The translations under genes and the position numbers were made by a program. Of a DNA stretch of 61,439 nucleotides, positions 24,150 to 33,681 are shown in pieces; positions within the stretch are counted from its first letter, which is position 1, and each line of letters starts with the position of its first letter. Origin of the DNA: Elusimicrobiota bacterium (lineage in GTDB: Bacteria > Elusimicrobiota > Elusimicrobia > UBA1565 > UBA9628); the NCBI GenBank assembly GCA_023249675.1, contig JAHFCE010000017.1, forward strand, positions 1 to 61,439, in the 5' to 3' direction. The notes beneath the pieces are model-generated. The model searched no databases and was not told the DNA's origin. It was given only the letters and a program-made list of their open reading frames with translations.

Positions 24150-26174
24150 ATGATCAAGAACAGGGTGTCAGGCTGGCTCACGCTCGGACGCAACCGCAAA
24201 CCTGCGGATCTGCTGGACAGTATCCGCCCCGAACCCCAACCTGCTTCCTCCGTCAAGCAGGCTCCCGAACGCTTGAGCGACGCGATCCGCCGGTCTCAGG
24301 ACGCATTGCTGCGCTTGCAAAATCAGGAGGACGGCTACTGGTGCGGTCCCATTTTCGGCGATTCCACGATCGACTCCGACACGATCATGCTGCTGAACTT
24401 CCTCGGTCGAGGAAGTTCCGTTAAAATCCGCCGCCTGGCGAACCATCTCCTCAACAAGCAGAACCCAGACGGCGGCTGGCCGATCTACGACAACGGCCCC
24501 TCCGAGATCTCGGCCACGGTTAAGGCGTATTGGGCGCTGAAGTTCGCCGGCCACGCCCCGCATGAGCCGTGTCTCGAGACCGCGCGCAAGCGCATCAAGG
24601 CCCTCGGCGGCATCCACAAGGTCAACACCTACACTAAGTTCTACTTGGCGCTTTTCGGGCAGTACGACTGGCGCGGCGTCCCCACGATCCCACCCGAGAT
24701 CATGCTGTTTCCAAACTGGTTCTACTTCAACCTGTACGAGATGTCGGCGTGGACGCGCTCCATTGTGGTGCCGCTCTCGATCGTCTGGGCGTTTCAGCCC
24801 GCGATCCCGTGCCCCGCGCACGCGACGATCGACGAATTGTTCCCCGACACGCGCCGCTACATCCCGCTCTCGGAGGCGCTCGCACCCCACAAGCTGATCT
24901 CGTGGACGACCTTTTTCCTCATATGGGATTCGTTCCTCAAAGGCATGGAAGGCCGCGGAGGTCACTGGATCCGCGTCTGGGCTCTGCGCTTGTCCGAGGA
25001 CTGGATGCTTGAGCGCCTCCAGGACAGCGACGGCCTCGGGGCGATCTACCCGGGCATCGCCAACTCGATCATGGCGATGAAGTGCCTGGGCTACCCCGAC
25101 ACCGACCCGCGCCTCGTGGCCCAGCTCCAGGAACTCGACCGCCTTGAGGTTCCCGGCGAAGACTCGACGCGCTATCAGCCCTCGCGCTCCCCCGTCTGGG
25201 ACACCGCGATCACCATGATCTCGCTCGCCGAGTCCGGGCTCGAGCGCTCTCATCCCGCGCTCGTGCAGGCCTGTCAGTGGATGATCTCGAAGGAAATCAA
25301 GATCCGCGGCGACTGGGCGGTCACCAACCCCGGCGCCCCGACGGGCGGCTGGTCTTTCCAGTTCAACAACGCGTTCTACCCTGATGTGGACGATACCGCG
25401 ATGGTCCTGCTGGCGCTGCGCCACGTGCACCTTGAGGAACCGAACGCCCAGATTCGGGAGAAGGCGTTCCTCCGCGGCCTGAATTGGCTGATGTCCATGC
25501 AGTCCGTGACGGGCGGCTTCGCGGCTTTCGATAAGGAGAACACCAAGGCGATCCTCGACAAGATTCCTTTCGCCGACCACAACGCGATGATCGATCCGCC
25601 GACGGCCGACATCACCGCGCGTGTGCTCGAACTGCTCGGTTACTGCGGCTACGACGCCTCGTACCCGGCGGCCAACAGGGCGATCCAGTTCGTCAAGGCC
25701 GAGCAAGAGGCCGACGGCTCCTGGTACGGCCGCTGGTGCGTCAACTACATCTACGGGACTTGGCAGGCCCTGCGCGGCCTCGCTGCGATCGGCGAGAACA
25801 TGGATCAGACATTCGCCCAACGCGCATCTGCCTGGCTCAAATCGGTGCAGCTGCCCAATGGGGGCTGGGGCGAGACGTGCGAGACCTACCACGATCCGTC
25901 CCTCAAGGGCAAGGGGCCGGCTACGCCAACGCAGACCGCGTGGGCGATCATGTCGCTGATGGCCGTCGGCGACTACGGCCCCGAGATGAGGCGCGGCATC
26001 GAGCATCTGATCTCGACCCAGCGCCCCAACGGCACCTGGGACGAAACTGAGTTCACGGGCACGGGCTTCCCGAAGGTCTTCTACCTCGAGTACACGATGT
26101 ATCGCAACAATTTCCCGCTGCAGGCGCTGGGCATCTATCGCAAGGCCCTCGTTTCGGGCCTCACCCGCGCGTAA
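24150..26174 (+). CDS. shc: Squalene-hopene cyclase
   Basis: A 674-residue terpene cyclase of usual family length. The catalytic acid motif D412-V-D414-D415 (DVDDTAMVLL) is intact, and QW-type repeats are present (NPDGGWPIYD, QEADGSWYGRW, LPNGGWGETCE, RPNGTWDE). It cyclises squalene to hopene/hopanol at the inner membrane. It is the first gene of an eight-gene operon. No Shine-Dalgarno with workable spacing is seen; the promoter lies immediately upstream. Confidence 0.95.
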   Translation: MIKNRVSGWLTLGRNRKPADLLDSIRPEPQPASSVKQAPERLSDAIRRSQDALLRLQNQEDGYWCGPIFGDSTIDSDTIMLLNFLGRGSSVKIRRLANHLLNKQNPDGGWPIYDNGPSEISATVKAYWALKFAGHAPHEPCLETARKRIKALGGIHKVNTYTKFYLALFGQYDWRGVPTIPPEIMLFPNWFYFNLYEMSAWTRSIVVPLSIVWAFQPAIPCPAHATIDELFPDTRRYIPLSEALAPHKLISWTTFFLIWDSFLKGMEGRGGHWIRVWALRLSEDWMLERLQDSDGLGAIYPGIANSIMAMKCLGYPDTDPRLVAQLQELDRLEVPGEDSTRYQPSRSPVWDTAITMISLAESGLERSHPALVQACQWMISKEIKIRGDWAVTNPGAPTGGWSFQFNNAFYPDVDDTAMVLLALRHVHLEEPNAQIREKAFLRGLNWLMSMQSVTGGFAAFDKENTKAILDKIPFADHNAMIDPPTADITARVLELLGYCGYDASYPAANRAIQFVKAEQEADGSWYGRWCVNYIYGTWQALRGLAAIGENMDQTFAQRASAWLKSVQLPNGGWGETCETYHDPSLKGKGPATPTQTAWAIMSLMAVGDYGPEMRRGIEHLISTQRPNGTWDETEFTGTGFPKVFYLEYTMYRNNFPLQALGIYRKALVSGLTRA

Positions 26175-26192: not shown

Positions 26193-27293
26193 ATGGCCAT
26201 GTCGCTGCAGGCGCAACTGTCGGTCTTCAAGTATCTCGTCACCCAAAAAATGAAGGGCGTGGAGAAGTATCCGCTCGTCATGATGCTCGAACCTTTGTTC
26301 GCCTGCAACCTCGAATGCGCGGGCTGCGGCAAGATCCAGTATCCGACCGACATCCTGCGCAAGCGCCTGACGCCTCAGGAGTGCTTCGACTCCGTTGAAG
26401 AGTGCGGCGCGCCCGTCGTCTCCATCGCCGGCGGCGAGCCCTTGATCCACCCCGAGATCGACATGATCGTCTCGGGCATGGTCGAACGCAAGAAGCCTGT
26501 GTATCTCTGCACGAACGCGATCCTGCTCGAGAAGAACCTGCACAAGTTCAAGCCGTCCCCCTACCTGATCTTCTCCGTCCATCTCGACGGCGTCGAGAAG
26601 ACGCACGACCGCATGGTCTGCCAACAGGGCGTCTATAAAACCGCGATCAGCGCGATCAAGCTCGCGAAGTCCAAGGGCTTCTGCGTGATGACGAACTCGA
26701 CCATCTTTCAGGGCGAGGACGCGGCCGAGTTCCGGCGGTTCTTCGATGACAATATGGCGATGGGACTCGACGGCATGATGATCTCCCCCGGCTACGCTTA
26801 CGAAAAGGCTCCTGAACAGCAGCTTTTCTTAAAGCAGGAGCAGTCCAAGGCCTGGTTCAAGGAAGCGCTGAAGGACTGGCGCCAGAAGGGGTGGGCGTTC
26901 AATCACTCCCCCTTCTACATGGACTTCCTCGAGGGCAAGCGCCAGTACGACTGCACGCCATGGGGCAACCCGCTGCGCAACGTGTTCGGCTGGCAGCGCC
27001 CATGCTATCTCATGAACGAGGGCGGCTACGCAAAAACTTACGGCGAGCTGCTGAGTAGCACCGACTGGTCCCGCTACGGCCACAAGTCGGGCAACCCGAA
27101 GTGCCTGAACTGCATGACGCATTGCGGCTTTGAGCCATCTTCAGTGGCCGAGGCGTTCTCAAGCCTCTCCAGCTTCTTCGAACTTGTCGCCGACTTCGCG
27201 TCGATCAAGGCCCCGAAGAAGGTGGAGTTGTCCTATGACCGTACCGGTACCTACGAAGAGGTCCTTGCCAAGGCCGGACCGACAAAGCGCTAA
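26193..27293 (+). CDS. hpnH: Adenosyl-hopene transferase HpnH (radical SAM)
   Basis: A 366-residue radical SAM protein. The cluster motif is C38-x3-C42-x2-C45 (ACNLECAGCGK), followed by SIAGGEPLIHPEI. It has the HpnH-type C-terminal cysteines (NPKCLNCMTHCGFE). HpnH attaches 5'-deoxyadenosyl to hopene, the first side-chain step. CAGGAG lies 9 bases before the ATG. It follows shc by 18 bases. Confidence 0.95.
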   Translation: MAMSLQAQLSVFKYLVTQKMKGVEKYPLVMMLEPLFACNLECAGCGKIQYPTDILRKRLTPQECFDSVEECGAPVVSIAGGEPLIHPEIDMIVSGMVERKKPVYLCTNAILLEKNLHKFKPSPYLIFSVHLDGVEKTHDRMVCQQGVYKTAISAIKLAKSKGFCVMTNSTIFQGEDAAEFRRFFDDNMAMGLDGMMISPGYAYEKAPEQQLFLKQEQSKAWFKEALKDWRQKGWAFNHSPFYMDFLEGKRQYDCTPWGNPLRNVFGWQRPCYLMNEGGYAKTYGELLSSTDWSRYGHKSGNPKCLNCMTHCGFEPSSVAEAFSSLSSFFELVADFASIKAPKKVELSYDRTGTYEEVLAKAGPTKR

Positions 27294-28303
27294 TGGACTT
27301 GGCCTTCCTCACCGGCGGCACCGGATTTGTCGGCGCGAATCTTTGCCGCTTGCTGACCCAGCAGGGGCTTCAGGTCAGAACGCTCGCCCGCAAGGGCGGC
27401 GACCGGAGAAATCTCGAGGGCCAAAACGTCGAGATCATCGAAGGCAGCCTGACGGATAAGTCTGCGATCGAGACAGGCGTCGCCGGCTGCCGGTATGTGT
27501 TTCATGTCGCCGCCGACTATCGGATTTGGATTCCGAATCCCGAGGAGATGTACAAGGCCAACGTCGAGGGCGCGGAGAACGTTCTGCGCGCCGCGGCCAA
27601 GGCCGGAGTAGAAAAGATCGTGCACTGCTCCTCGGTCGCCGCGGTGAAAGTGCCCGAGGACCGCACGCCCGTCGATGAAACAAGCGAGTACGCCTCTCTT
27701 GACGAGATCGTGGGCCATTACAAGAAGTCGAAGTATCTCGCCGATGTCCTGGCCCGGCGTTTGGCCCAGAAAGAGGGCCTGCCCGTCATCACCGTCAATC
27801 CCGCCGCCCCGATCGGACCTTATGACATCAAGCCCACACCAACGGGCAAGCTGGTCGTCGACTTTTTAAACGGACGAATTCCGTCATACATCGACACAGG
27901 CCTCAACATCGTTCATGTCGAAGACGTCGCGATGGGACACTGGCTCGCGGCACGCAAGGGCCGCGCCGGTGAGCGCTATATTCTGGGCGGAGACAACCTC
28001 ACGCTGAAGCAGGTCCTCGACCTGCTCGCCGAGGCATCAGGATTGCCCGCGCCGATGTTCAAGACGCCCTACGCAGTGGCCTATGCCTTCGGCGCGGTCA
28101 ATACAGCCTTGGCCGTCCTGCGCGGGACGATTCCCATGGCTCCGCTCGACGCGATCAAGATGGCGAAACATTACATGTGGTTCTCATCGGAGAAAGCGAA
28201 GCGGGAGCTCGGATATTCGCCGCGGCCGGCGAGGATCGCGCTGAAGGACGCGGTGGGCTGGTATCTGGCGAACGGATATGCGAAGGTCCCGGCGGCGGCA
28301 TGA
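27293..28303 (+). CDS. hpnA: Hopanoid-associated NAD-dependent epimerase HpnA
   Basis: A 336-residue extended SDR protein. Rossmann motif TGGTGFVGANL at the N-terminus, catalytic Ser in HCSSVAAVKV and YKKSK as the Tyr-x3-Lys pair. HpnA-type proteins are conserved in hopanoid clusters; their exact reaction is not established. ATG overlaps the hpnH stop (TAATG). Confidence 0.9.
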   Translation: MDLAFLTGGTGFVGANLCRLLTQQGLQVRTLARKGGDRRNLEGQNVEIIEGSLTDKSAIETGVAGCRYVFHVAADYRIWIPNPEEMYKANVEGAENVLRAAAKAGVEKIVHCSSVAAVKVPEDRTPVDETSEYASLDEIVGHYKKSKYLADVLARRLAQKEGLPVITVNPAAPIGPYDIKPTPTGKLVVDFLNGRIPSYIDTGLNIVHVEDVAMGHWLAARKGRAGERYILGGDNLTLKQVLDLLAEASGLPAPMFKTPYAVAYAFGAVNTALAVLRGTIPMAPLDAIKMAKHYMWFSSEKAKRELGYSPRPARIALKDAVGWYLANGYAKVPAAA

Positions 28304-29022
28304 GCGCTTTGATGCAAGAAACAGAGAACGCTGCGCGCGCCGCCCTGCCGAAAACGCCAATATTGATCACCGCGGCGACCACGTGGGAAATGAGGCCGCT
28401 GGCCAACGCCCTCAAGCTGGAACCCGCTGGCGACGACCGCTATGAAGGTGCTTTGGCCGGTCGCCGCGTCACGCTGATCAAGACGGGCATTGGGGCGACG
28501 CAAACGACCGACACGCTTAACGGATTGAACGGCAACGAATGGTTGCTCGTGATCAGCGCCGGACTGTGCGGGTCCATGCAGAAAGACGTCCGCCACGGGG
28601 ATATCGTGGCCGACGTTCGCGAAACAGCGCTCGAGTTCGTCGGCCCACTCAGGGATACGGCGCTAACGCTGAAAATTCCATTTCACTTTGGAAGAATTTT
28701 GCACACAAACATTGTGCTCAAACCCGCCGCCAAACGCGCTCTCGGCGAGGAACAGCGGGCGATCGCCTGCGACATGGAAACCGCGGCGGTTCGCCGCTGG
28801 GCCGACAACAGATTCGCCGTGATCGGCGTGCGCGTCGTTCTCGATGATCTTAATGAAGAGATCCCCTCCGCCATGCCCGACGGCGAGGACGCCGCTTGCC
28901 TCGCGCGTTTTGTCCTGACCCACGCCGCGTCCCTCCCCTCTTTAGTCCGCACCGGCTGGAGATCTGCCCGCGCGATGAGCCATTTGGCCCGACACCTGGC
29001 CGTTTATCTGGAGACCCTTTGA
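28300..29022 (+). CDS. hpnG: Adenosylhopane nucleoside phosphorylase-like HpnG
   Basis: A 240-residue member of the nucleoside phosphorylase/MTA-SAH nucleosidase superfamily: ITAATTWEMRPLANAL start, VISAGLCGSM, and the DMETAAV motif (purine-binding Asp/Glu). HpnG removes adenine from adenosylhopane to give ribosylhopane. Start ATG 28300 overlaps the hpnA stop by 4 bases; the longer in-frame extension is hpnA shadow. Confidence 0.9.
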   Translation: MSALMQETENAARAALPKTPILITAATTWEMRPLANALKLEPAGDDRYEGALAGRRVTLIKTGIGATQTTDTLNGLNGNEWLLVISAGLCGSMQKDVRHGDIVADVRETALEFVGPLRDTALTLKIPFHFGRILHTNIVLKPAAKRALGEEQRAIACDMETAAVRRWADNRFAVIGVRVVLDDLNEEIPSAMPDGEDAACLARFVLTHAASLPSLVRTGWRSARAMSHLARHLAVYLETL

Positions 29023-29930
29023 ACGCCCAACTCGCCCGTGCGATGGGAAAGAACACGGCGTCGGTGGACGGCGCGATGGAGAAACTCCTCGCGCCATCCC
29101 CCGATCTGCCCGAAACGGTCCGCAAGGCGATGCGCTACTCGCTCTTCGCGGGCGGCAAGCGCCTGCGCCCAACGTTGGTGCTCGAGGCCGCGGAGTGCTG
29201 CGGTCTGAACGCGAGCAAGGCTCTCAAGACCGCCGCGGCGCTTGAGATGATCCACACGTATTCCCTCATCCACGACGACCTCCCGGCGATGGATGATGAC
29301 GATCTGCGCCGCGGCAAGCCGACCAATCACACGGTGTTTGGCGAGGCGATGGCGATTTTGGCCGGCGACGGCCTGCTCACGAAGGCTTTCGAGGCCGCCG
29401 CCGAAAATGCGGCTGATCTCAAGCTGAAGGGCCGCGAGGCTGCCGAATTGATACGCCTCATCGCCCGCGGCGCCGGAGCTGAAGGCATGGTGGGCGGGCA
29501 GGTCGCCGACCTCGCCGCCGAGGGACTCTCGAAAAGACTGTCGAAGTCGGCCGCGGCCAAAATCCTCAAGACCGTGCATCGCCGTAAAACCGGCGCCTTG
29601 ATCGTCGCGAGCCTCGACGCGGGCGCGGTGCTCGCCGGGGCATCCCAGGCCAAACGCCAAGCGCTTCGCTCCTACGGAGACTGCGTGGGCTTGGCCTTCC
29701 AGATCGCCGACGACGTGCTCGACGTCGTCGGGGACAAAAAAAAGATGGGCAAGCGCGGAAGCGACCGCGACAACGACAAGTTGACCTACGCCGCCCTATA
29801 CGGGGTGGACGGCGCGCGCGCAAAAGCCCGCTCGCTCGTTGAAAAAGCGCACGCGCACCTGCAGCCTTTTGGCTCGCGCGCGTCCGTACTGCATGAACTG
29901 GCGGACTACATCATCGAACGGGATAAATGA
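29019..29930 (+). CDS. ispA: Polyprenyl (farnesyl/geranylgeranyl) diphosphate synthase
   Basis: A 303-residue all-alpha prenyltransferase. First Asp-rich motif HDDLPAMDDDDLRRG with the two-residue insertion typical of bacterial FPP synthases, second motif QIADDVLDVVGD, and FAGGKRLRP at the N-terminus. It makes the C15 precursor for squalene. TTG 29019 overlaps the hpnG stop (TTGA) and has GGAG five bases upstream; ATG 29043 is the alternative. Confidence 0.9.
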   Translation: MNAQLARAMGKNTASVDGAMEKLLAPSPDLPETVRKAMRYSLFAGGKRLRPTLVLEAAECCGLNASKALKTAAALEMIHTYSLIHDDLPAMDDDDLRRGKPTNHTVFGEAMAILAGDGLLTKAFEAAAENAADLKLKGREAAELIRLIARGAGAEGMVGGQVADLAAEGLSKRLSKSAAAKILKTVHRRKTGALIVASLDAGAVLAGASQAKRQALRSYGDCVGLAFQIADDVLDVVGDKKKMGKRGSDRDNDKLTYAALYGVDGARAKARSLVEKAHAHLQPFGSRASVLHELADYIIERDK

Positions 29931-31828
29931 TCATGGAATTATTGAAAGACATCAACAGCCCCGCGGACCTCAAGAAGCTCCCCGTGGAAAGGTTGCCGCA
30001 GGTCGCCTCGGAAGTCCGCGCCTTCATCCTCGACACCGTTTCAAAGCTGGGCGGCCACCTGGGCTCGAGCCTCGGCTCGACCGATATCACCGTCGCCCTC
30101 CATTACGCCTTCGATACCCCCAAGGACAAGCTGGTCTGGGACACCGGTCATCAGACCTACGGCCACAAGATCCTGACCGGCCGCCGCGAAAAGATGGGAA
30201 CGATCCGCCAGTTCGGCGGCCTCTCGGGCTTCCTCAAGCGCTCGGAATCGGAGTACGACGCCTTTGGCGCGGGCCACGCCTCGACCGCGATCTCGGCCGC
30301 GCTCGGCATGGCCGTGGCGCGAGACCTCAAAGGAGAGAAGAACAAGGTCGTCGCGATCGTCTCCGATGGCTGCATGACCGGCGGCGAGGCCTACGAGGGC
30401 CTGCAGAACGCGGGCCAGGTGCAGACCGATCTCATCGTCGTGCTCAACGACAACCAGATGTTCATCTCCAACCGCGTCGGCGCTCTTGGGGCCTTCCTCT
30501 CGAAGCTTCTGACCTTGGGCGCGGTGCGCGACGCCGAGCACTCGGTCAAGAAATTCCTGGCCCGCTTCCAGTTCTGGGGCGAATCCATCCTGCGCGTGGC
30601 CAAGCGCGCGAAGGTGCTCCTCTTCCCCGGCATGCTGTTCGAGGAAATGGGCTTCACCTACTTCGGACCGGTGGACGGCCACGACGTCGAGCAGCTCGCG
30701 GCCGTGTTCAAGCACGTCAAGCAGCTCAAAGGGCCCATTCTGGTGCACTGCGTGACGAAGAAGGGCAAGGGCTACGCCGCCGCCGAGGAGGACCAGTACA
30801 CCTGGCATGGCCCGGGAAAATTCGACGTGGCCACCGCCAAGTTCCTTAAGACGCCGGTGATCAAAGCGCCCCCGCCCACCTACACGGCGATTTTCGGCAA
30901 GTCGATTCTGCGCGAGGCCGAAAAAGATCCGCGCATCGTCGGCATCACCGCCGCGATGCCGGAGGGCACGGGAATGGACGTCTTCCGTGATCGCTTCCCG
31001 AAGCGCTACTTCGACGTGGGCCTGGCCGAGGAGCATGCGGTGACCTTCGCCGCCGGCCTCGCCTGCGAGGGCTATCGCCCGATCGTGGCGATCTACTCGA
31101 CGTTCCTCCAGCGCGCGTTCGACCAGATCGAGCACGACGTATGCCTGCAGAAGCTTCCGGTGATCCTATGCCTCGACCGCGCCGGCCTCGTCGGCGAGGA
31201 CGGTCCCACGCATCACGGCGTTTTCGACTACTCGTATCTGCGCATGATCCCGGGCATGACCGTCATGGCCCCGGCCGATGAGAACGAACTGCAAAACATG
31301 CTGCGGACCGCCCTCGGGCTCAATGCTCCAGTCGCGATCCGCTATCCGCGTGGTGCCGGCGTGGGTGTTGCGATCGAGGCCGACCCCACAGCTCTGCCCA
31401 TCGGCAAAGGTGTTCGCCTCAAGGACGGCAACGACGTGACCTTGCTCGCCATCGGCAACCGCGTGCACCCAGCGCTCGAGGCCGCCCAGATTCTCGAAGA
31501 CAAGGGGTATTCGGTCGGCGTGGTCAACATGCGCTTCGTCAAACCCCTGGATGTCGAGCTCCTCAAGGAGTGCGCGGCCAAGACCCCGCGCTTGGTGACC
31601 GTCGAGGACAACGTGATCTCGGGCGGCTTCGGCTCCGCCGTCCTCGAGGCGTTGACCCCGGGCCGCGCGGAAGTTCTGCGCCTTGGCATCCCGGATTCAT
31701 TCGTCGAGCATGGCGCGCCGCCGCTGCTGTATGATGCGATCGGCCTGTCGGCGACCAAGGTCGCCGAGCGAATAGCCGCCTGGCTTCCGCAGAAATCCCG
31801 CGCCGCCGTCGAGCCCCAGGAGAGATAG
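29927..31828 (+). CDS. dxs: 1-deoxy-D-xylulose-5-phosphate synthase
   Basis: A 633-residue TPP enzyme, normal length, catalysing the first MEP step. GHLGSSLG and HQTYGHKILTGR in the first domain; transketolase central domain with GLAEEHAVTFAAGLA; C-terminal domain with GGFGSAVLE. The TPP-metal motif reads SDG...NDN, not the usual GDG...N, an odd substitution. ATG 29927 overlaps the ispA stop (ATGA). Placing dxs in a hopanoid operon suggests flux control. Confidence 0.93.
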   Translation: MIMELLKDINSPADLKKLPVERLPQVASEVRAFILDTVSKLGGHLGSSLGSTDITVALHYAFDTPKDKLVWDTGHQTYGHKILTGRREKMGTIRQFGGLSGFLKRSESEYDAFGAGHASTAISAALGMAVARDLKGEKNKVVAIVSDGCMTGGEAYEGLQNAGQVQTDLIVVLNDNQMFISNRVGALGAFLSKLLTLGAVRDAEHSVKKFLARFQFWGESILRVAKRAKVLLFPGMLFEEMGFTYFGPVDGHDVEQLAAVFKHVKQLKGPILVHCVTKKGKGYAAAEEDQYTWHGPGKFDVATAKFLKTPVIKAPPPTYTAIFGKSILREAEKDPRIVGITAAMPEGTGMDVFRDRFPKRYFDVGLAEEHAVTFAAGLACEGYRPIVAIYSTFLQRAFDQIEHDVCLQKLPVILCLDRAGLVGEDGPTHHGVFDYSYLRMIPGMTVMAPADENELQNMLRTALGLNAPVAIRYPRGAGVGVAIEADPTALPIGKGVRLKDGNDVTLLAIGNRVHPALEAAQILEDKGYSVGVVNMRFVKPLDVELLKECAAKTPRLVTVEDNVISGGFGSAVLEALTPGRAEVLRLGIPDSFVEHGAPPLLYDAIGLSATKVAERIAAWLPQKSRAAVEPQER

Positions 31829-32815
31829 ATGAGCACCGACACCCGCTCGCAAATCCGCATCGAGAAGCTCGTCATCGCGAAAATCCGCGGCTTCTGCGCC
31901 GGCGTCGTGCGCGCGATCGAAGTCGTCGAGCGCGCCCTTGAGTTGTGCGGCGGCAAGGTCTATGTCCGCCACGAAATCATCCACAACCGTTATGTCGTTG
32001 AGGAGCTGCGCCGGAAAGGCGCGGTGTTCGTGGAGGATCTCAATGAGGTTCCCAACGGTTCTTGGCTGATCTTCTCGGCCCATGGCGTTGGCCCCGACCT
32101 CATCAAGGAAGCCCGCTCGCGGCAGCTCAAGGTTATTGACGCGACCTGCCCCCTTGTCACGAAGGTCCACCTCGAAGCCATCGCGCTGGCCAAGCACGAC
32201 TACACGATCGCTCTGATCGGCCACCGCGATCACGTGGAGACCATCGGCACGCTCGGCGAGGCCCCCGAGCACATGATCGTCGTCGGAAGCGTCGCGGAGG
32301 CCGAAACGATCACCGTCCCGAACCCCGATAAGATCGCCTACCTCACGCAGACCACCTTGTCCTTGGATGACACACGCGAGATCGTGGCCGTGCTCAAACG
32401 CCGCTTCCCGAAGCTCGGCGCGCCCAAAAAGGACGATATCTGCTACGCGACGCAAAACCGCCAAAACGCCGTCAAGGCGATGGTTCCTCAGATCGACCTT
32501 CTCCTCGTGCTCGGCGCGCCGAACAGCTCGAACTCCAACCGTCTCGTCGAGGTGGCTCTGGCAAAAGGAGTTAAATCGCGCCTGATCGAGCGCGCCGCCG
32601 ATATCAAGGACGAGTGGCTCGGGGGCGTGAAGACCCTCGGCCTGACGAGCGGCGCCTCGGCTCCGGAGGTTCTCTTCCAGGAAGTCGTGACTCTCTGCAA
32701 GGATCGCTACGGCGTGAAGACCGTCGAGGAGCTTGAAACCGTCGAGGAGAACGAGCACTTCGGCCTGCCCTTCGAACTCGTCAAGATGATTAAGGAAAAG
32801 GAAGGCAAGGCATGA
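31829..32815 (+). CDS. ispH: 4-hydroxy-3-methylbut-2-enyl diphosphate reductase
   Basis: A 328-residue iron-sulphur reductase making IPP and DMAPP. Three cluster cysteines are visible in RGFCAGVVRAI, DATCPLVTKVH and DICYATQNRQ. Family motifs HEIIHN, FSAHGVGP, GLTSGASAPE are intact. It abuts dxs with no gap and has AGGAGAG upstream. It supplies the C5 units for the hopanoid pathway. Confidence 0.95.
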   Translation: MSTDTRSQIRIEKLVIAKIRGFCAGVVRAIEVVERALELCGGKVYVRHEIIHNRYVVEELRRKGAVFVEDLNEVPNGSWLIFSAHGVGPDLIKEARSRQLKVIDATCPLVTKVHLEAIALAKHDYTIALIGHRDHVETIGTLGEAPEHMIVVGSVAEAETITVPNPDKIAYLTQTTLSLDDTREIVAVLKRRFPKLGAPKKDDICYATQNRQNAVKAMVPQIDLLLVLGAPNSSNSNRLVEVALAKGVKSRLIERAADIKDEWLGGVKTLGLTSGASAPEVLFQEVVTLCKDRYGVKTVEELETVEENEHFGLPFELVKMIKEKEGKA

Positions 32816-33132
32816 ATCAGATGATCCCGCTGACGAAAACGTTGACCGAAGAGCTCGTGATCGAAACGGTTCTCCCGGCCGAGCCGGAACCCGCGGAGCG
32901 GACACGCGAGGAAGTCGACCTCGCCCGCATCCCCAAGCGCGCCCCTCCCTCCAAGGGCCTGTGCCTGCGCTGCGGAGAGAACAAGCCGATCAATCGCCTA
33001 ATGCTGTGCTACCCGTGCTGGGTCAAGTCCCAGCTCGAAAAGGACGGCTGGAAGGAAGGCGAGCCGCACCCCGACGCCTGCGGCTGCGAAGGCCTCTCGG
33101 GCCATCCGGATCGAAAGTCCGTCGGCAACTGA
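32812..33132 (+). CDS. Small zinc-ribbon protein, translationally coupled to ispH
   Basis: A 106-residue protein I do not recognise. Residues 1-48 are acidic and low in structure. Then comes a ribbon of C51-x2-C54-x11-C66-x2-C69, followed by C90-x-C92 and H98 (DACGCEGLSGH). Its ATG overlaps the ispH stop by 4 bases, so it is the last gene of the hopanoid/MEP operon. A role in assembly of the iron-sulphur enzymes or regulation is possible but only inferred. Confidence 0.7.
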   Translation: MNQMIPLTKTLTEELVIETVLPAEPEPAERTREEVDLARIPKRAPPSKGLCLRCGENKPINRLMLCYPCWVKSQLEKDGWKEGEPHPDACGCEGLSGHPDRKSVGN

Positions 33133-33135
33133 CCG

Positions 33136-33681
33136 CTACTTAAAAACGTTCTTGCGGTAGTGCCTGAGTTCGGCGATGGATTCGTGCACGTCAGCGAGCG
33201 ACAGATGCTGCTTACTCTTGGAGTACACGTACTTCTGCTCCGGGTACCAGCGCGAGACGAGTTCCTTGATGGAGGAGACGTCGATCGAGCGGTAGTGGAA
33301 GTAGTCGTGCAGGCGCGGCATGAACTTGACCAAGAAGCGCCGATCCTGGCCGATCGTGTTGCCGCACAAAGGCGACTTGCCCGGAGCGCACCACGGCGAC
33401 AGAAACTCGAGCGTGCGGGCCTGGGCGTCGAGGACCGTGATGCCCGAGTCGCGGCAGCGCTGGGTCAGCCCCGACTTGCCGTGCTGCTCGACGCACCACG
33501 GATCCATGCCGTGAAGGATGTCCTCGGACTGGCGAATCGCGAGGCAGGGTCCTTCGGCTAGAACCCTCAGCTCGCCGTTGGTGACGACGGTGGCGATCTC
33601 AAGGATAAAATCCTTCTCGGGATCCAGGCCCGTCATCTCGAGATCGAGCCAGACCAGGTTCTTTTCATCGGGAGAGGACAT
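33136..33681 (-). CDS. orn: Oligoribonuclease
   Basis: A 181-residue DEDD 3'-5' exonuclease. VWLDLEMTGLDP carries D13 and E15, GNTIGQDRRFL the third acid, and the C-terminal region ESIAELRHYRKNVF is an Orn hallmark. It degrades short oligoribonucleotides. It converges with the small zinc-ribbon gene (3-base gap). An extended -10 ends 6 bases before its ATG. Confidence 0.95.
   Translation of the reverse strand: MSSPDEKNLVWLDLEMTGLDPEKDFILEIATVVTNGELRVLAEGPCLAIRQSEDILHGMDPWCVEQHGKSGLTQRCRDSGITVLDAQARTLEFLSPWCAPGKSPLCGNTIGQDRRFLVKFMPRLHDYFHYRSIDVSSIKELVSRWYPEQKYVYSKSKQHLSLADVHESIAELRHYRKNVFK

Follow-up and report, generated by a model that had tools for sequence, protein, structure and literature searches.

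Two groups of described proteins come closest to the gene product considered here, an unnamed and putatively double-metal zinc protein that we call ZR. Proteins of the DksA/TraR group (PF01258, TIGR02419, phrog_54) share with ZR a short length, a C4 site of the form CxxCG...P..R..LCxxC and the existence of phage-borne members. The DksA/TraR zinc finger has the spacing C-x2-C-x17-C-x2-C. The proteins uS14 (type Z) and L37 share with ZR the pattern RCG...P..R...LC..C over ~31–42 positions and provide its best sequence matches in the PDB.

ZR is encoded downstream of hopanoid and MEP genes in a genome of the Elusimicrobiota (Table 1); "the window" denotes the whole stretch of DNA that was analyzed (61,439 nucleotides). 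An earlier note on this DNA had taken the tight coupling to the upstream ispH gene as a sign of a role linked to IspH and hopanoids. Here, we propose that ZR probably serves as a general regulator and not in hopanoid synthesis, because genomes that have lost the MEP route keep ZR and genomes that bear hopanoid genes can lack it. A search of the literature on Elusimicrobiota, hopanoids and small zinc proteins, at the level of listings, found nothing on this gene.

The ZR Gene and Its Neighborhood

The open reading frame of 106 residues is real, and the residues C51, C54, C66, C69, C90, C92, and H98 are all placed as the earlier note had read them. ZR is present as one copy in its own genome. 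It is more than a chance reading frame, because it recurs in 38 of the 56 genomes of its order, all 31 aligned rows share its six cysteines and dN lies well below dS in all eight pairwise comparisons (dN 0.07–0.30, dS 0.38–1.29). The family is thus under purifying selection. In the same eight comparisons, the core is under tighter constraint than the acidic N-terminal tail, in which pN is higher. Rfam searches of the window and ten relatives found no RNA element between ispH and ZR, and their only matches were two tRNAs, the first in the window, the second in a relative (L044).

Table 1. Features of the window and of related phage contigs, with the evidence for each.
Feature	Position	Strand	Basis
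Squalene-hopene cyclase (shc)	24150..26174	+	TIGR01507 over cut-off
hpnH	26193..27293	+	TIGR03470 over cut-off
hpnA	27293..28303	+	TIGR03466 over cut-off
hpnG-like phosphorylase, diverged HpnG	28297..29022 (start chosen; also 28177-29022)	+	TIGR03468, 62 bits, below cut-off 187.1
ispA-type prenyl diphosphate synthase	29043..29930	+	PF00348, NF045485; start chosen within ORF
dxs	29927..31828	+	TIGR00204
ispH	31829..32815	+	PF02401 E 1.8e-90, TIGR00216
ATGA overlap, ispH stop/ZR start	32812..32815	+	ORF listing and sequence
ZR gene, 106 aa, ATG start; unnamed, putative double-metal zinc protein	32812..33132	+	ORF listing and sequence
ZR tail, residues 1-35, variable, mostly acidic, probably disordered	32812..32916	+	Low conservation; block pLDDT 43-65; higher pN than core
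ZR site 1, C51-x2-C54-x11-C66-x2-C69, predicted treble-clef-like	32962..33018	+	Invariant in 31/31 rows and in phage rows
ZR putative site 2, H86, C90, C92, H98	33067..33105	+	H86, C90, C92 invariant, phage rows included
orn (oligoribonuclease-type exonuclease), convergent with ZR	33136..33681	-	PF00929; name read from sequence
Phage ZR contigs IMGVR_UViG_3300028654_000012; 3300044823_000054; 3300001798_000009			Viral contig scans

Across the 38 chromosomal loci, the gene recognized immediately upstream of ZR is ZrA in 22, ispH in seven, ispG in four, dxs in three and ispA in one, with none in one locus. ZrA is an unnamed zinc-ribbon family of 64 aa (WLQPRH...CPGC...WCKKCNRG; e.g., G196:C8:4098-4283) that shows weak likeness only to entries of Pfam, NCBIfam, and the PDB. 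It sits a short distance upstream of ZR in 21 of the 38 loci, G232 counted, or in 22 with G181, where the distance is 660 bp. The ~190-base gap in relatives proved to code for ZrA. If ZrA is skipped, the nearest recognized isoprenoid gene upstream is ispH in 24 loci, dxs in four, ispG in four and ispA in three. The neighbors counted here, like those in the gene-order comparisons below, were located by tblastn with a predefined panel of query proteins, and genes beyond this panel are invisible. Hence, an isoprenoid gene precedes ZR in 35 of 38 loci; no such gene is recognized in G181 and G191, and the contig ends in G232. As had been suggested, ZR is usually the last gene of the hopanoid/isoprenoid cluster, and its homologs are not mostly found away from hopanoid or MEP genes. 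It does not always sit with shc and ispH, however, as ispG, dxs, or ispA is upstream elsewhere.

The 4-base overlap with ispH is present in the window but is not a general trait, since it is found in only three of the 38 loci. With the start codon set as the ATG nearest the match, the start of ZR lies within an ATGA overlap in 20 of 38 loci, in 15 of them with ZrA, in three with ispH and in two with ispG; in G213, the junction is a gap of ~12 bases by eye. The ispH overlap of the window copy accompanies the loss of ZrA, which is absent from the window genome. ZrA and ZR are both small C4 proteins but have no sequence likeness by eye, and ZrA follows ispH even where ZR is missing. ZrA is present in 34 of the 56 order genomes. 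Both genes occur together in 27 genomes, ZR alone in 11, ZrA alone in seven and neither in 11 (p 0.04 over 56 genomes, 0.71 in the 36 of high quality).

Gene order differs between the families of the order. Four genomes of family f3 show ispG-ZR-orn, with DUF218 between ZR and orn in three of them, and carry shc...ispH-ZrA or shc...dxs-ZrA at another place on the contig or in the genome; the other families have ispH, dxs, or ispA upstream of ZR. In family f1, IspG, where found, is encoded on another contig than ZR (C53 in the window genome) or, in G204 with its single contig, at a distance of ~540 kb. The IspG of the window genome (G000:C53:13176-15083) comprises ~660 aa and is matched by its model in two parts, as in most order genomes, and seems to be an elongated form that carries an insert. 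A single ancestral neighborhood that was shortened later would explain the observed ZR gene orders.

Predicted Metal Sites and Structure

The ZR alignment comprises 31 of 39 loci, including the phage-like copy of G207 as one row; G194 was excluded because of masked letters in the core, as were the near-duplicates G195, G197, G198, G207, G209, G215, and G230. In all 31 rows, the six cysteines, H86, and W80 are strictly conserved. The position of H98 is a histidine in 30 of 30 chromosomal rows, whereas all four phage copies have a cysteine in the same stretch, with the spacing CxCx5C or CxCx3C. Such a His/Cys swap in the last putative ligand of site 2 fits the expectation for a metal ligand. Judging from these residue patterns, ZR is likely to bind metal, and it probably combines a C4 zinc site with a second metal site formed by H86, C90, C92, and H98.

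An AlphaFold2 model built from 14 sequences has a mean pLDDT of 67.5, with blocks of 75–89 over residues 41–90. The only helix of the model spans residues 67–77 and begins at the second CxxC. The predicted protein thereby shows the hallmarks of a zinc-binding treble clef, i.e., four invariant cysteines, the second pair at the start of a helix, and a core with block pLDDT of 75–89. Fold searches with the model found no match at E 0.001 and none at Z 2.

Distribution and Phage-Borne Copies

The earlier description of ZR as an unrecognized zinc-type protein is borne out, as the window copy has no match at E ≤ 1 in Pfam or NCBIfam, and the 31 aligned members have weak, scattered matches only. By sequence search, ZR is found in 38 of 340 Elusimicrobiota genomes, all in one order. 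A profile search raises the count to 39, the additional match (G020, E 0.0013, 33 positions) being unconvincing; neither search found a convincing match in the other 284 genomes of the phylum. Among the high-quality order genomes, those lacking ZR are on the whole smaller (eight of 10 at ≤2.7 Mb vs. a median of 3.2 Mb for the 26 with ZR; p 0.003, relatedness ignored). With each species represented by one genome, a scan with one query sequence gave at least 13 ZR loci. As the profile search covered the genomes of the phylum, relatives beyond it may be missed.

ZR relatives are also encoded on four phage-like contigs, namely the three viral contigs of Table 1 and contig C1 of G207. According to PHROGs, neighbors of phage ZR encode a clamp loader, a nucleotidyltransferase, a portal protein, a replication-initiation protein, a thymidylate synthase, and a DNA methyltransferase. 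The second ZR copy of G207, a bin listed as 6% contaminated, has the phage-type neighbors phrog_2045 and phrog_9298. A tblastn search of annotated phages and plasmids with the window ZR gave no match at E ≤ 1; against annotated phages, one phage copy was likewise without a match, and another had matches at chance level only. In a weakly supported tree of 62 columns, the phage copies fall into two groups, one of which possibly lies within genus g1 on a long branch. These 62 columns are too weak to fix the direction of transfer between phage and host. ZR is old in one Elusimicrobiota order and also carried by phages.

Does ZR Serve the Isoprenoid or Hopanoid Pathway?

The position of ZR invites the view that it assists the Fe-S enzymes IspG and IspH through metal supply, as a redox partner, or as a scaffold. 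ZR follows ispG in four of 38 loci, ispH is the nearest isoprenoid gene upstream in 24, the 4-base overlap is frequent, and in each of the order's three families ispH is followed by ZrA, another zinc-ribbon gene. However, of the 36 high-quality order genomes, the four in which neither IspG nor IspH reaches the thresholds used (G191, G212, G213, and G234) all encode HMG-CoA reductase and all retain ZR; they represent three lineages rather than four independent cases, and none has a Dxs over the cut-off. ZR is also in place in seven genomes whose cluster lacks ispH (G212, G213, G228, G230, G231, G233, and G234), and the five genomes of genus g9 encode IspG and IspH and are missing ZR. The proposed link to IspH did not hold up against these data, and we regard an accessory role for IspG/IspH as largely refuted and very improbable. 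In G191, G212, G213, G234, and G187, the MEP pathway has seemingly been replaced by a mevalonate route; the first four carry HpnH and G187 does not. Genomes that apparently swap the MEP pathway for the mevalonate route and retain the cluster constitute a useful natural experiment. The genus g12 genomes G228, G230, G231, and G233 encode HMG-CoA reductase in addition to MEP genes; their ispH is located away from the cluster and has a lower score than the cluster-type ispH in other genera. These genomes possibly represent an intermediate state or a replaced ispH.

Alternatively, ZR might assist or regulate the synthesis of hopanoids or prenyl lipids as such. ZR resides within the hopanoid cluster in most genomes, HpnH is found in nearly all order genomes (47/56), and ZR still lies beside ispA in G212, G213, and G234 after the loss of MEP genes. 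The isoprenoid neighbor in 35 of 38 loci, including three of the four mevalonate-type genomes, thus lends a link to prenyl or hopanoid lipids a small probability. On the other hand, HpnH is present in 59 of 340 phylum genomes, of which 33 carry ZR and 26 do not, i.e., 14 in the order and all 12 HpnH genomes outside it, some of these genomes being incomplete. Within the order, ZR and HpnH show no association (both in 33 genomes, ZR alone in five, HpnH alone in 14, neither in four; Fisher p 0.45). The absence of ZR is clean, with the cluster intact, in G221, G223, G225, and G229, where orn directly follows ispH or dxs and neither ZR nor ZrA is found; it is unsure in G199, G210, G183, and G184 because the contig ends first. 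ZR of family f3 lies ~6–28 kb from the hopanoid cluster or on a separate contig, and phages carry the gene as well. An accessory or regulatory role in hopanoid or prenyl-lipid synthesis appears quite improbable. The only high-quality genome with ZR and without HpnH is G197, whose ZR contig begins a short way upstream of hpnG. HpnH is apparently lost in single-contig G204, but this was dropped as evidence, since squalene-hopene cyclase is split over two frames there (G204:C1, ~1782350-1784205) and gene absences in this genome are unreliable. The most constant neighbor of ZR is orn, downstream and convergent in 34 of 38 loci, and in families f2 and f3 the arrangements ZR-DUF218-orn or ZR-orn occur away from hopanoid genes, which would suit a partnership in RNA turnover or nucleotide signaling. 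Yet convergent neighbors share no common transcript, and orn stays in place in the same four genomes from which ZR is cleanly absent, so we give such a partnership little weight.

A Possible Role in Gene Expression

Our leading reading, held tentatively, is that ZR is a phage-shared double-metal protein that modulates gene expression and stands in the operon by inherited order, with no hopanoid or MEP step of its own. We judge it quite likely that ZR is no factor dedicated to the MEP or hopanoid pathway. Its acidic tail is probably disordered, and besides the treble-clef-like C4 zinc site it would have a second site for metal. Built in this way, ZR would most plausibly dock on nucleic acid or on machinery that handles it, i.e., RNA polymerase or the ribosome, and thereby modulate gene expression. 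It would have kept its place at the end of the operon by inherited order (ZR after the isoprenoid genes and before convergent orn), and would be translated together with whichever gene lies upstream.

The weak likenesses described below, together with phage carriage, favor an action on nucleic acid, RNA polymerase, or the ribosome, and in our judgement such a target is possible rather than probable. As no fold match is significant, the proposed target draws on weak sequence likeness that is common to many C4 zinc proteins. A more far-reaching and unlikely scenario is that ZR represents a novel family of double-metal regulators that Elusimicrobiota and their phages exchange, with which phages would steer the RNA polymerase or ribosome of the host and of which the host order would maintain a copy coupled to its membrane-lipid operon.

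ZR adds an unnamed family of small zinc proteins that is common to an uncultured bacterial order and phages. Furthermore, ZR overlaps ZrA, ispH, or ispG depending on the genome and survives the loss of the pathway with which it had seemed linked, and hence tight operon coupling need not mean shared function.

Comparison With Known Zinc Proteins

The likeness to DksA and TraR raises the question whether ZR is a true member of this group that acts in the secondary channel of RNA polymerase. The DksA-like family phrog_54 is matched by 22 of 31 ZR members (best E 0.00055), TraR (TIGR02419) by two of 31 (best E 0.032), and TraR-labeled phage models are among the weak fold matches. Against membership, the curated model PF01258 (zf-dskA_traR) has no match to the window ZR at E ≤ 1 and matches only one of the 31 members (E 0.015), and a separate DksA-type zinc finger over the cut-off is encoded elsewhere in 53 of 56 order genomes. 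Moreover, ZR has a shorter loop between its cysteine pairs (C-x2-C-x11-C-x2-C) and an additional HxxxCxC...H site. We consider true membership very unlikely.

For uS14 (type Z) and L37, profile comparisons with ZR yield E 0.006–0.05, and Foldseek yields E 2.1 for uS14 type Z. Other weak matches (zf-UBR, FYVE_2, HypA, and RelB antitoxin) point elsewhere. Each of these likenesses, whether to uS14, L37, DksA-like proteins, or TraR, is far below what a claim of membership would take. ZR differs from uS14 and L37 in its tail, a putative second metal site, and a non-ribosomal gene context.
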